Shown here: positions 7,287-55,554 of the stretch, piece after piece
Numbering within the stretch: the stretch's first letter is position 1
Layout of the letters: each line of letters opens with the position of its first letter
Assembly: GCA_016463775.1 (NCBI GenBank)
Contig: JAEMQQ010000005.1
Coordinates: 1-55,554 of the forward strand
Direction of reading: 5' to 3'
DNA length: 55,554 bases
DNA from: Ilumatobacteraceae bacterium
GTDB taxonomy: Bacteria; Actinomycetota; Acidimicrobiia; Acidimicrobiales; Ilumatobacteraceae
Notes under the pieces: generated by a model
Seen by the model: the letters and a program-made list of their open reading frames with translations, nothing else
The model's database searches: none
Told to the model about the DNA's origin: nothing
Translations under genes and position numbers: made by a program

Positions 7287-8216
7287 TTGGCAACTACCGT
7301 TCTGGAGGTGAGCGGCGCCAATCGGTGGAATCTCGACGGTTTCGTCGTCTCGCTCACCGCTGCAGCCCCCAACACGATCAGCGCGTACCAACGGGACGTG
7401 CGTTTGTTCGTCGAGTGGGTGGCGCGCCACGGGGTGGATGCGCCGGTCGAAGTCACCAAGGCCCACATCCGGTCGTATGTTGCGTTCCTCACCACGAGCA
7501 AGTTGGCGCGGCGCAGTATCGCCCGCAAGAAAGCAGCCCTCGCGCGCTACTTCGGTTGGTTGTCGCGCAATCGCAAAATCAAGGTCAATCCGACCATCGG
7601 CGTGAAAACCCCGGCCGACAAGGGCCGGCTCCCCAAGGTGTTGACCACCGAGCAACTTCGGGCGTTGCTCGAACAACATCCCGAACATCATCCGCGTTGG
7701 CGGCACCTACGCGACGATGCCGTCGTCGAGACGCTGTACGGCAGCGGTCTGCGGGTGAGCGAGTTGTGCTCGCTCGACATCGACTCGATCGATACCCGTC
7801 GCGGCGTGGTGCGGGTGATGGGCAAAGGCAACAAAGAGCGGCAAGTACCGGTGAGCAAACCGTCGATCGAGGCGGTGCGGGCCTGGGTACCGCTACGCCA
7901 CGAGGTGCTCGGCGAGACCGACGTCAAGGCACGCCGCATGAGCGCCATCGACGAACTTGCGCTCTTCCTCAACCATCGTGGTCGACGCATCACACCGCGC
8001 GACGTGCGCCGACTCATCGACGACCGTGCGCTCTCACCGACGCATCCGCATGCATTACGCCACACATTCGCCACGCATCTGCTCAACAACGGTGCCGACC
8101 TGCGCGCCGTGCAAGAGTTGCTCGGCCACAGCGACGTGGCCACGACGCAGCGCTACACCCACGTGAGCAAAGAACGATTGAAGACGGCGTACGGGGCGTC
8201 GCATCCCCGCGCATGA
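7287..8216 (+). CDS. xerC: Tyrosine recombinase, XerC type
   Basis: The product is 309 residues from TTG 7287, or 302 from GTG 7308. An N-terminal SAM-like core-binding domain ('[14 protein letters not shown]') precedes the catalytic domain with all active-site residues: Arg156 ('GLRVSE'), Lys180 ('GKGNKE'), His255 and Arg258 ('HALRHTF'), His281 ('LGHSD') and nucleophile Tyr290 ('QRYTHV'). It most likely acts with XerD at dif to resolve chromosome dimers. The start is uncertain: a GGAGG motif at 7304-7308 abuts GTG 7308, and no good ribosome-binding site precedes 7287. It overlaps the sigma-factor start by ATGA at 8213. Confidence 0.92.
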
Positions 8217-8977
8217 ACCCACGCCCAGAACGTCTCACCGTTGACGAGGCATGGTCGCGCTGGCAGTCGGCCCAAAATCCGGCGGCGCGCGATTGGCTCG
8301 TGTTGCACTATGCGTCGCTCGTCAAGTTCGTTGCCGGTCGTTTGTCGGCAGGTTTGCCCAAGCGGGTCGAGACAAACGACTTGGTGAGTGCTGGCGTCGT
8401 GGGGCTCGTGCAGGCAATCGATCGCTTCGTGCCCACCGCAGGTGCAAAGTTCGAGTCGTACGCCGTTCCGCGAATCCGCGGGGCGATTCTCGACAGTCTG
8501 CGTTCGCTGGATTGGGTACCACGCTCAGTGCGCGCGCGTTCGCGGCAGATTCAGGGTGCAATCAGCAATTTGCAAAACGAACTCGGCCGCTCAGCCACCG
8601 ATGCCGAGATCGCCCAACGGCTGGGCATTTCTGCCGACGAGTTGCATGACTGGCTGACCGACGTTGCCTCGAGTGCCATTGGGCCACTCGACCATGTGGC
8701 GATGGATTCACACGCGCTTCCAGATTCGAGTGATTTCCAGCGCGCCACCAACCCCGATGCCGCGATGGAGTCGGGCGAACTACGTCGCACGATGCACGAT
8801 GCAATTCGCAAACTGCCCGAGCGCGAGCGCACCACGTTGCTGTTGTATTACGAAGAGAACCTGACCTTTGCCCAAATTGGCGAGGTACTCGACGTGACCG
8901 AAAGCCGGGTCTCACAAATTCATGCCAAAGCGGTGCTGCAGATGCGCAGCCATCTCGCCGCAGCAGATTTTCGCTAG
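8213..8977 (+). CDS. whiG: FliA/WhiG-family RNA polymerase sigma factor
   Basis: The product is 254 residues with sigma regions 2 (about 25-105, '[17 protein letters not shown]'), 3 (about 107-160) and 4 (about 195-250, with the helix-turn-helix '[19 protein letters not shown]'). Length and sequence match the sigma-28 group, which serves flagellar genes in motile bacteria and sporulation genes (WhiG) in Streptomyces. The position between dprA/xerC and rpsB is, to my knowledge, that of Streptomyces whiG. WhiG is held by the anti-sigma factor RsiG in a c-di-GMP-dependent way in Streptomyces; no rsiG is visible here. The ATG overlaps the xerC stop. Confidence 0.9.
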
Positions 8978-8997
8978 CGCCAGCCGCGGCCGCAATC

Positions 8998-9462
8998 GTG
9001 TTCATGTCGCTTGTCGTTGGTGTGTGTTTGGTGTTGCCGAGCAACGCCAGTGTGATTGACCCGTTTCGAGCCCCCGAGTGTGAGCGTTGTGCCGGCAATC
9101 GCGGGGTGGAATTCGCCGTGCCGATCGGTAGCGATGTGGTGGCCGGGTTATCGGGCACGGTGTCGTTCGTCGGGGTGGTCGCCGGGCGCAACTATGTGGT
9201 GCTGCGCGCCACCGCCAACCCCGCGGTGCGGGTTACCTACGGCGGGTTGATTTTCTTGCCGGCGCCAGCGCTGCAGCTTGGTGCGGTCGTGGCGCGCGGC
9301 GACCGCATCGGCATTGCCCAAAATTCGTTGCATGTTGGCCTGCGCATCGGTGATCACTACGTCGACCCGCAACAGTCGGGCAGTGGTGAATACAGCCAAG
9401 TGGCAAAGCCGCGGTATCGCGTCACCTTGGGTGCGCGACGCACCCGCACCTGCAGCAAATAA
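8998..9462 (+). CDS. Exported M23-peptidase-like protein with degenerate active site
   Basis: The product is about 154 residues, starting at GTG 8998 or ATG 9004. A hydrophobic N-terminal stretch ('FMSLVVGVCLVLPSNAS') looks like a signal peptide. The rest resembles the LytM/M23 beta-sandwich: 'NRGVEFAVPIGSDVVA' corresponds to the usual HxGxDfaa...G..V.A strand, and 'LHVGLRIGDHYVDPQ' to the LHFE.R..G..VDP block. The first metal His is Asn and the following Asp is Glu, so zinc binding is probably lost and the protein may bind, not cut, peptidoglycan. It sits 20 nt after the sigma-factor gene and is likely cotranscribed. Confidence 0.72.
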   Translation: MFMSLVVGVCLVLPSNASVIDPFRAPECERCAGNRGVEFAVPIGSDVVAGLSGTVSFVGVVAGRNYVVLRATANPAVRVTYGGLIFLPAPALQLGAVVARGDRIGIAQNSLHVGLRIGDHYVDPQQSGSGEYSQVAKPRYRVTLGARRTRTCSK

Positions 9463-52824: not shown

Positions 52825-54264
52825 ATGGCGTCGGCAGCATTCATCGACCTCGACCGCACGTTGGTGAAAACCGCGACTGGCCCCGTGATTTCTGCTGCAT
52901 TGCGTGCAGCACAGTTGGTGCCGGGGTCGATACCGCTCGAATCGTTGGTGTTCCGCACATTCAATACCATCGGTGAAACATTGCCGATGATGTTGCTCGC
53001 CCGCCAAGGTGCCACAGCGATGAAAGGCAAGTCGCAGCGATTGGTGCGCGAAGCGGTGCGCAGTGCCATACCCGAACTCACCGCAATGGTGCAACCGTTT
53101 GCCCTGCAAGCCATCGAGCGGCATCGCGCCGACGGCCACAAAGTGGTGCTGGCCACCACTTCGCCCTACGACTTCGTCGAAGAGTTCGCCCGCTCGTTGG
53201 GTTTCGACGATGTGATTGCCACAAGGTTCGAAGTCGACGCCGGCGGGCTGTATTCAGGGCAACTCGACGGGCGGTTCGTGTGGTCGGGCGGCAAACTTGC
53301 GGCGGTCAGCGAGTGGTGCGCTGCGAATGGCGTTGACATTGCAACATCGTCGGCGTATAGCGACAGCGTGTACGACTCGCCGTTGCTCGAAGCAGTGGGG
53401 CATCCGCATGCGGTGAACCCCGATGCGCGCTTGCAAGTGTTGGCTGCTGCGCGTCGTTGGCCGATCGTGAATTTTGATGTGTCACCCGGGGTGGCCAAGG
53501 TGCCGGTCATCGGCACCGAGTTGCAAAAACTCGCGCTTACCTTTGCGCGACCCGAACTGATTCCGTATGCCAAGTTTTCTATCACCGGCACCGACAACAT
53601 TCCGGTGAGTGGCCCGGCAATTTTGGTCGGCAACCATCGCAGTTATTTCGACGTGTTTGCGGTTGCAATCACCGTGGGCAAGACCAGTCGCACGGTGCGC
53701 TTCCTCGGCAAAAAAGAAGTGTTCGACGCACCGGTCGTCGGGCAACTCGCTGCGGCGCTCGGTGGCATTCGTGTTGATCGTGGCACGGGGAGCGACGCAC
53801 CGCTTGAAGCCGCCACCGCAGCACTCGAAGCAGGTGAAATGGTGGCAATCATGCCGCAGGGCACCATCCCTCGTGGCCGGGCGTTTTACGACCCCGCGTT
53901 GCAGGGCCGGTGGGGTGCAGCACGCCTGGCGGTGTTAACGGGTGCGCCGGTCATACCGATGGGCATCTGGGGCACCGAAAAAGTGTGGCCGCGCAATTCG
54001 CAGGTGCCACTGGTGTGGAATGTGTTGAACCCACCGAAGGTGACCATCACCGTCGGGCCCGAAGTGGCGTTGCGTCGCGATGGGGATGCAGCGGCGTTGG
54101 CCGACGAAAACACCAAGCGCATGATGTCGGCGATTAGCAATTTGTTGCCGCCCGAGGCACGTGTGACGCGTGAGCCCACCGAGGCCGAAATTCGCGCTGC
54201 GTTGCCGTCGAACTACACCGGCGACCTGAACGCCGAGTTCACGCGCCGCCCCGGCACTGATTAG
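52825..54264 (+). CDS. HAD-IB hydrolase / PlsC acyltransferase fusion
   Basis: The product is 479 residues. The N-terminal HAD-IB phosphatase domain (1 to about 200) begins 'AAFIDLDRTLVK' with the DxD nucleophile pair, then 'ATTSPYDF' and 'SDSVYDSPLLE'. The C-terminal PlsC/LPAT domain (about 235-430) has 'NHRSYFDVF' (NHX4D) and 'IMPQGTIPRG' (EGT-like block with Gln for Glu). Such fusions in mycobacteria and relatives make phosphatidate from lysophosphatidate and may also dephosphorylate a lipid. The ATG is probably served by a very short leader. Its stop is the last base before the tRNA-like remnant. Confidence 0.9.
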   Translation: MASAAFIDLDRTLVKTATGPVISAALRAAQLVPGSIPLESLVFRTFNTIGETLPMMLLARQGATAMKGKSQRLVREAVRSAIPELTAMVQPFALQAIERHRADGHKVVLATTSPYDFVEEFARSLGFDDVIATRFEVDAGGLYSGQLDGRFVWSGGKLAAVSEWCAANGVDIATSSAYSDSVYDSPLLEAVGHPHAVNPDARLQVLAAARRWPIVNFDVSPGVAKVPVIGTELQKLALTFARPELIPYAKFSITGTDNIPVSGPAILVGNHRSYFDVFAVAITVGKTSRTVRFLGKKEVFDAPVVGQLAAALGGIRVDRGTGSDAPLEAATAALEAGEMVAIMPQGTIPRGRAFYDPALQGRWGAARLAVLTGAPVIPMGIWGTEKVWPRNSQVPLVWNVLNPPKVTITVGPEVALRRDGDAAALADENTKRMMSAISNLLPPEARVTREPTEAEIRAALPSNYTGDLNAEFTRRPGTD

Positions 54265-54338
54265 TCGGTGAGACGTACCAACAAATTGTCTGGTAACTCT
54301 CAATCACCGGGTCGGGGGTTCGAAGCCCTCACCGCCAA
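54263..54338 (+). pseudogene. tRNA-like remnant (3' half well formed), possible attachment site
   Basis: GGGGG-TTCGAAG-CCCTC (54314-54330) is a standard T-arm and ACCGCCA plus A (54331-54338) a 3' acceptor. Upstream, GGTAA-CTCTCAA-TCACC (54292-54308) can form an anticodon arm with loop CTC, though one A-C pair is mismatched. The 5' part (54263-54291) gives only 5 of 7 acceptor pairs and a D-loop without GG. It looks like a decayed tRNA or the 3' tRNA fragment left at an integration junction. The G+C drop begins at its end. Confidence 0.55.
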
Positions 54339-54410
54339 CGTATTATGGTGAATTAGTTGTATGTCCGCCAAAAATCATCGGCTTAACTTGGTTTTTCAAT
54401 TGGGAGAGAA

Positions 54411-55554
54411 ATGAAGCCTGTGAAAATCGCTGATTTTGGAATTACCGAAGAGTTTGGCTATTTGCCGGCCTATGCACCAGCTCACAGCTTGTCAGCCGGT
54501 AATGAAGAGTGGGATCAGTTTGGTAGAGACATCCCAAAGTTATTGATGGGTACCAACTTTCGATCTCGTGTGAAAGCACTTCCTGAATTTAATGTGAAGA
54601 AGTTAAACGGCGAGGCTGAGATTCAGCGAGCTATGTTGATTTTGAGTTACATCGGTCAGTCCTATCAATGGTCTGAAAGTAACCCTGCAACTGTTATGCC
54701 AGCAAACTTGGCCGTTCCGTGGTACCAAGTAGGCAAAATCGTTGGCAGGCCGCCAATTCTTTCCTACCAAAGTTACGCCTCAGATAATTGGCGCAGATTT
54801 GATACTGCTGGCCCAATCGAGTGTGGAAATATCGGCTTACTTCAATGTTTCTTGGGCGGCCAAGATGAAGAGTGGTTCATTTTAATTCACATTGATATTG
54901 AGAAAAAAGCAGGCAAGGCACTTAAGGCCATTGAGGATGCACATAGCGCGGTCTCGAACAATGATGCTGATCAGCTAGAGGCGTCAATGACAAATTTACG
55001 TAATGCTCTGACTTCGATGTATGAAGTACTCGGGAGAATGCCAGAAAGATGCGACCCTTATATCTATTTTCATCGAGTGCGTCCTTACATTTTTGGCTGG
55101 CGCAATAATCCATCCCTACCAGATGGTGTGATTTATGAAGGTGTGGATGAGTATCAAGGGGTTGGACAGAAATTTCGTGGAGAAACCGGTGCTCAAAGTG
55201 CCATCATTCCAGCGATGGATGCGGTTCTAGGAATCGACCATGAGCAGGATCAACTACGGGAGTATTTAATGGAGATGCGCATGTATATGCCCCCACGACA
55301 TGTGGCTTTTATCGAAGCAGTTGAAGCTGGTCCATCAGTTCGCAATTTCGTATCCGGAGCAAAGCGACTTGCACTTACAACCGTATTCAATGAGTGCGTT
55401 GAGTTGGTAGCAAACTTCAGAGCGATGCATCTTGAATATGCGGGGACTTATATCCACTCACAAGCACAAGCAACCCCGGGAAATCCATCGGCAGTGGGCA
55501 CTGGTGGAACCCCATTTATGACCTATCTTCGCAAGCACCGTGATGAGACAAAGA
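54411..55554 (+). CDS. Indoleamine 2,3-dioxygenase family heme protein (3' end off window)
   Basis: 381 residues are visible from ATG 54411 (GGGAGAG upstream). It follows human IDO1 closely in the second half: 'DPYIYFHRVRPYIFGW' (Tyr219, Phe220 and Arg224 at the F226/F227/R231 sites), 'GETGAQSAIIPAMDAVLGI', 'YMPPRHVAFIEAV', proximal heme ligand His340 in 'RAMHLEYAGTYI', and the 'GTGGTPFMTYLRKHRDE' active-site loop. It would open the indole ring of tryptophan or a related indole to N-formylkynurenine. Only the C-terminal end is cut. Codons are much more AT-rich than the rest of the window, suggesting transfer. Confidence 0.93.
   Translation, partial: MKPVKIADFGITEEFGYLPAYAPAHSLSAGNEEWDQFGRDIPKLLMGTNFRSRVKALPEFNVKKLNGEAEIQRAMLILSYIGQSYQWSESNPATVMPANLAVPWYQVGKIVGRPPILSYQSYASDNWRRFDTAGPIECGNIGLLQCFLGGQDEEWFILIHIDIEKKAGKALKAIEDAHSAVSNNDADQLEASMTNLRNALTSMYEVLGRMPERCDPYIYFHRVRPYIFGWRNNPSLPDGVIYEGVDEYQGVGQKFRGETGAQSAIIPAMDAVLGIDHEQDQLREYLMEMRMYMPPRHVAFIEAVEAGPSVRNFVSGAKRLALTTVFNECVELVANFRAMHLEYAGTYIHSQAQATPGNPSAVGTGGTPFMTYLRKHRDETK

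Follow-up and report, generated by a model that had tools for sequence, protein, structure and literature searches.

The window, by which we mean the whole 55,554-base stretch of DNA analyzed, is one complete contig (C26, 1-55554) in the 1.56-Mb, 80-contig, 94%-complete assembly of a freshwater actinobacterium of the Ilumatobacteraceae. Its last host gene stops at 54264 and is followed by a tail of different composition whose sole gene is an indoleamine 2,3-dioxygenase (IDO), a 381-codon frame that is still open at its 3′ end. The features at this end of the contig are:

52825-54264, forward strand: fusion of a HAD-IB phosphatase with a PlsC-type acyltransferase (Pfam HAD, Acyltransferase); last host gene and left edge of the junction
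54264/54265: junction, spanned by the 30-mer GGCACTGATTAGTCGGTGAGACGTACCAAC
54265-54291, no strand assigned: spacer of 27 bases between the host stop codon and the tRNA remnant, without match
54292-54339, forward strand: degenerate, attR-like 3′ part of an acI tRNA-Lys(CTT), 87.5% identical over 48 bases to the tRNA-Lys of L011 (3705-3752)
54340-54410, forward strand: IDO leader, its last 28 bases homologous to the acI leader (alignment with L011)
54411-55554, forward strand: IDO of acI type (PF01231), truncated at the 3′ end

GC content in 600-base windows is 55-70% up to 54000, 53% at 54001-54600, and 45% at 54601-55200, with a step at 54265 from about 60% to 46%. The tail (54265-55554; 46.3% GC) lies 4.7 standard deviations under the genome mean (763 windows of 1.2 kb from the same genome), and none of the 67 other contig ends sampled (13 short contigs were masked) falls below 53% GC as a foreign-looking tail would. 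These values confirm the sharp change of composition that the initial annotation had described from about 54340, and its count of 27 G/C among the 60 bases of 54421-54480 is exact on direct reading.

The IDO matches PF01231 almost from end to end (E = 1.1e-94; 318 bits, cut-off 26; profile positions 2-410 of 412), with the heme ligand (H340, human H346), the active-site arginine (R224, human R231), and the GTGG motif all kept; a ribosome-binding site (GGGAGAG) is located at 54402-54408. The contig ends about 18 bases short of the stop codon expected from relatives, so that a gene earlier called full-featured retains its family assignment, heme ligand, and arginine but is incomplete, its 3′ end cut by the contig end. 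All 26 aligned bacterial IDOs, the window copy included, carry a His at the position of human IDO1 Ser167 and a Tyr at that of Phe226; this residue is the distal His of tryptophan 2,3-dioxygenase (TDO). Its family predicts an ordinary heme dioxygenase that converts L-tryptophan to N-formylkynurenine. The protein is an ordinary member of the family, and only its position in the contig is unusual.

Host sequence up to the junction is collinear with that of the sister genome G004 (93.6% nucleotide identity), the alignment running exactly to the HAD-PlsC stop codon (54264); the encoded protein is 97% identical to that of G004 and 82-85% identical to those of four further relatives. Similarity of G006, G007, and G012 to the window also stops at this codon, with other sequence beyond it. 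These relatives diverge at one common codon and differ in what comes after it, which makes this a natural variable spot. The stretch behind the stop (54264; loci L099-L102) forms a small hot spot of gene content, with a PIN gene, a Fur-like gene, and others that differ from one relative to the next. Two genes, one with a PIN domain and one aconitase-like, follow HAD-PlsC in G004; that downstream region, as far as gltB, has no DNA-level counterpart in the host assembly. Host gltB is found on C15 and C36, adjoined on C15 by a polyamine-transporter-like operon. The 27-base spacer has no match in the fetched loci or in viral contigs; its CGGTGA is complementary to TCACCG in the tRNA remnant, and a hairpin is predicted (z -2.5).

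On sequence grounds, the tail is assigned to an acI (Nanopelagicales, Planktophila-like) ancestry. Among 84,980 species genomes, the best match to the IDO is that of Ca. Planktophila L011 (92% amino acid and 87% nucleotide identity), followed by other acI-type genomes at 75-88%; none of the 296 acI-family genomes exceeds 87% nucleotide identity as an exact donor would. A maximum-likelihood tree places the window IDO within the acI-type clade, as the partner of L011 (100/100), and sets it apart from the IDOs of the host genus, which form a separate clade (100/99; 67-69% identity to the window IDO). GC content follows the same division: the window IDO, at 46%, resembles the acI-type genes for which it was computed (42-45%) and not the IDOs of the host genus (56-61%). 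In acI an IDO is nothing unusual, with at least 40 of the 296 acI-family genomes having one; this count, and the high-GC IDO carried at another locus by six of 12 same-genus genomes, do not bear out the rarity in bacteria previously ascribed to the enzyme. Contamination was considered as a source of the relatives' IDOs and rejected, since these genes resemble the host in GC and gene neighbourhood and the genes around them are found in the host genome as well.

The locus of the genus's own IDO has an NDH-2 gene upstream (G006) and a methyltransferase gene downstream (G003, G006, and G009). In the host these two genes are adjacent on C16 with no IDO between them, so that the native gene is cleanly absent; G004 has a different gene at this locus and no IDO at all. 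The tree, the GC content, and the empty native locus together indicate that the window IDO is not the genus's own. The segment, which the closest relatives lack at this site, is thus foreign by both composition and ancestry.

Donor-type loci in acI account for the sequence found upstream of the IDO. The order in L011, L015, and L016 is tRNA-His, tRNA-Lys(CTT), a variable island, and IDO. A second tRNA-Lys 3′ copy precedes IDO by 1 kb in L016, and in L011 additional copies lie 3.5 and 1.8 kb upstream of IDO, with a T-arm relic of 14 bases (14 of 2000 shuffles do as well) some 45 bases upstream. In other acI genomes the upstream neighbour of IDO is tRNA-Val, either as an intact tRNA-Val(TAC) that ends 25-28 bases from the IDO start (L023, L024, L025, and L077) or as a 3′ remnant immediately in front of it (L013, L014, L018, and L020). 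These loci imply that islands enter the gap between tRNA and IDO and that the remnants they leave are on the IDO-proximal side; the acI IDO sits just outside the attR-like end of these islands, and no convincing tRNA repeats, which would make IDO island cargo, were found downstream of acI IDOs.

Several further features of the acI loci were observed. Variable islands occur at both tRNA-Val(TAC) and tRNA-Lys(CTT); the end towards IDO is the distal one, recognizable by tRNA 3′ remnants, which L011 has in tandem. IDO occupies several chromosomal sites, after tRNA-Val, downstream of a tRNA-Lys island, and between mnmA-like and ligA-like genes (L021, L023, L024, L011, L015, and L017), and this diversity of sites indicates that it relocates. 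L015, alone among the acI genomes compared, has a 71-base direct repeat (98.6% identical) flanking IDO (8001-9158) at about 130 bases on either side. A SOUL-family heme-binding protein is encoded just upstream of IDO on the opposite strand in L016 (7351-7884), placing a heme protein beside a heme dioxygenase.

The tRNA 3′ end that the initial annotation had noticed at the junction is real, in that 54292-54339 matches acI tRNA-Lys(CTT), but it is degenerate: ARAGORN finds no tRNA at the junction, Rfam gives no tRNA match, and the remnant, judged by its sequence, is not a functional tRNA. Comparable second tRNA-Lys copies are those of L016 and L011. Since the islands of acI separate tRNA-Lys or tRNA-Val from IDO, the scrap and the IDO can be explained as donor-side neighbours, the scrap probably having arrived within the acI-derived segment.

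The reading that we prefer, at a probability of about one half, is a real transfer, in which an acI fragment was joined into a host lineage that lacks the IDO of its genus. In the most likely history, a remnant of tRNA-Lys(CTT) would have been left in an acI genome at the distal end of a tRNA island, with IDO behind it; a fragment carrying both would then have been joined just past the HAD-PlsC stop codon by illegitimate recombination, not directed by a tRNA, at a spot that varies among relatives and in a recipient without the genus's own IDO. We infer both the presence of the junction in a real genome and this route. Transfer is favoured by the position of the break at a gene end where relatives also diverge, by the open reading frame and intact key residues of the IDO, and by the lack of any foreign-looking tail at the other sampled contig ends. 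It is weakened by the occurrence of the junction in one contig end only, by the wholly acI-like character of the foreign piece, which starts beside a tRNA relic, a kind of place at which acI assemblies are prone to break, by a best donor match of 87% at the nucleotide level, and by the missing host continuation (the aconitase region of G004).

The serious rival, absent from the initial annotation, is that the assembler attached 1.3 kb of acI sequence from the same lake to the end of an Ilumatobacteraceae contig, in which case the host itself would have no IDO of any kind; the choice between the two is near even, a balance struck by judgement and not by computation, and a chimeric end is almost as credible as transfer. 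A tail purely acI in character, beginning close to a tRNA relic of a sort that recurs across acI genomes, is what such a fusion would give, and the loss of the expected host continuation from the assembly and the lack of IDO in the sister G004 point the same way. The break is nevertheless not at a random position, falling at the gene end where relatives diverge too, and none of the 67 other sampled ends shows such a tail. No shared sequence that could cause the join was found: the core of the remnant occurs once in the assembled host genome (94% complete), even with up to three mismatches allowed, and so this stretch offers none for a false join.

Far less probable is the reading first proposed, an integrase-driven island inserted at a host tRNA with IDO as its cargo and more island genes past the window. 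A tRNA 3′ remnant at the boundary together with a change of composition suggested it, and the foreign origin of the DNA stands but integration targeted to a tRNA here lacks support, so that the proposal is partly supported. There is no tRNA, intact or otherwise, after HAD-PlsC in the four relatives readable past the site (G004, G006, G007, and G012), which contradicts the reading and, with the uniqueness of the remnant core, leaves tRNA-targeted integration here unsupported; the remnant is explained from the donor side, and the direct repeat of the tRNA 3′ end expected at a second boundary is not found in the host assembly. Nor is a role of the IDO as mobile cargo supported. It lies outside the island in acI, no integrase is encoded in 54265-55554, neither IMG/VR viral contigs nor phage records yielded an IDO, and matches on plasmids reach at most 46% amino acid identity; the variant of the tRNA remnant and the acI tRNA-Lys core likewise have no matches in viral contigs. 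Integrase matches in the host genome are one xerC-like gene in the window (7287-8216) and one more on C56. The former, the only gene of this type in the window, is a tyrosine recombinase gene that follows a dprA-like gene and looks like a core xerC, not the integrase of a mobile element. As the window is the whole contig, the assembly has no sequence past its end in which further island genes could be read. Vertical inheritance of an AT-rich resident gene, suggested by the IDOs in half of the same-genus genomes, can be dismissed, being refuted by the tree, in which the genus IDOs form their own high-GC clade, and by their different locus, where the host has none.

The tryptophan-metabolite pathway that had been envisaged beside the IDO is not visible there; the kynureninase-like gene of the host lies elsewhere, beside a TDO gene. 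Such pairs adjoin one another in the host (C17:7796-9834), in its relatives G003 (C51), G004, G006 (C57), and G010 (C54), and in the acI genomes G041 (C10), G042 (C32), and G110 (C1:490665-492694); G009 has a TDO gene with a kynureninase-like fragment. The kynureninase name is probable, the hits lying just under the NCBIfam cut-off. IDO, TDO, and kynureninase-like genes share one contig in G110, so the coexistence of IDO and TDO is no artefact of binning; G043, G044, and G114 encode IDO with no TDO or kynureninase detected in genomes that are possibly incomplete. A passage of PMC4191572 (citing Yuasa 2011) describes bacterial TDO and IDO as mutually exclusive, and the coexistence of the two in several of these genomes is an exception to the exclusivity reported there. 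No relevant paper on IDO in freshwater acI was found in the literature collection searched. It is a tentative and rather doubtful suggestion that the IDO of freshwater actinobacteria has a separate role and is not the entry to the kynurenine pathway, being kept, lost, relocated, or exchanged independently of the TDO-kynureninase pair; the window would then be a case in which an acI copy was taken up by an Ilumatobacteraceae lineage lacking the IDO of its genus.

If the junction is real, one metabolic gene has passed recently between two distantly related groups of actinobacteria abundant in lakes, a case that adds to a pattern of IDO coming and going beside a resident TDO-kynureninase pair. 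That pattern makes the purpose of bacterial IDO directly testable. If the contig end is a chimera, the case is a caution that a tRNA scrap and a change of composition at the end of a MAG contig may derive wholesale from another organism.

Compared with tRNA-associated islands, in which a tRNA 3′ end serves as the attachment site, the window has a remnant that resembles an attR, as found in acI between the tRNA and IDO, but it lacks a host tRNA target and an integrase, and the repeat has no second copy in the host assembly. Knowledge of bacterial IDOs, from marine bacteria, dates back to the GOS survey (PMC1821046); with this branch (PF01231) the window IDO shares the full-length domain, the proximal His, the active-site Arg, and the GTGG motif, and it differs in being cut at the contig end. 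The closest likeness is to the IDO of acI (Ca. Planktophila/Nanopelagicales), with which the window shares protein sequence (92% in L011), GC content, leader, and an upstream tRNA remnant, the difference being that here the gene is joined to an Ilumatobacteraceae contig.
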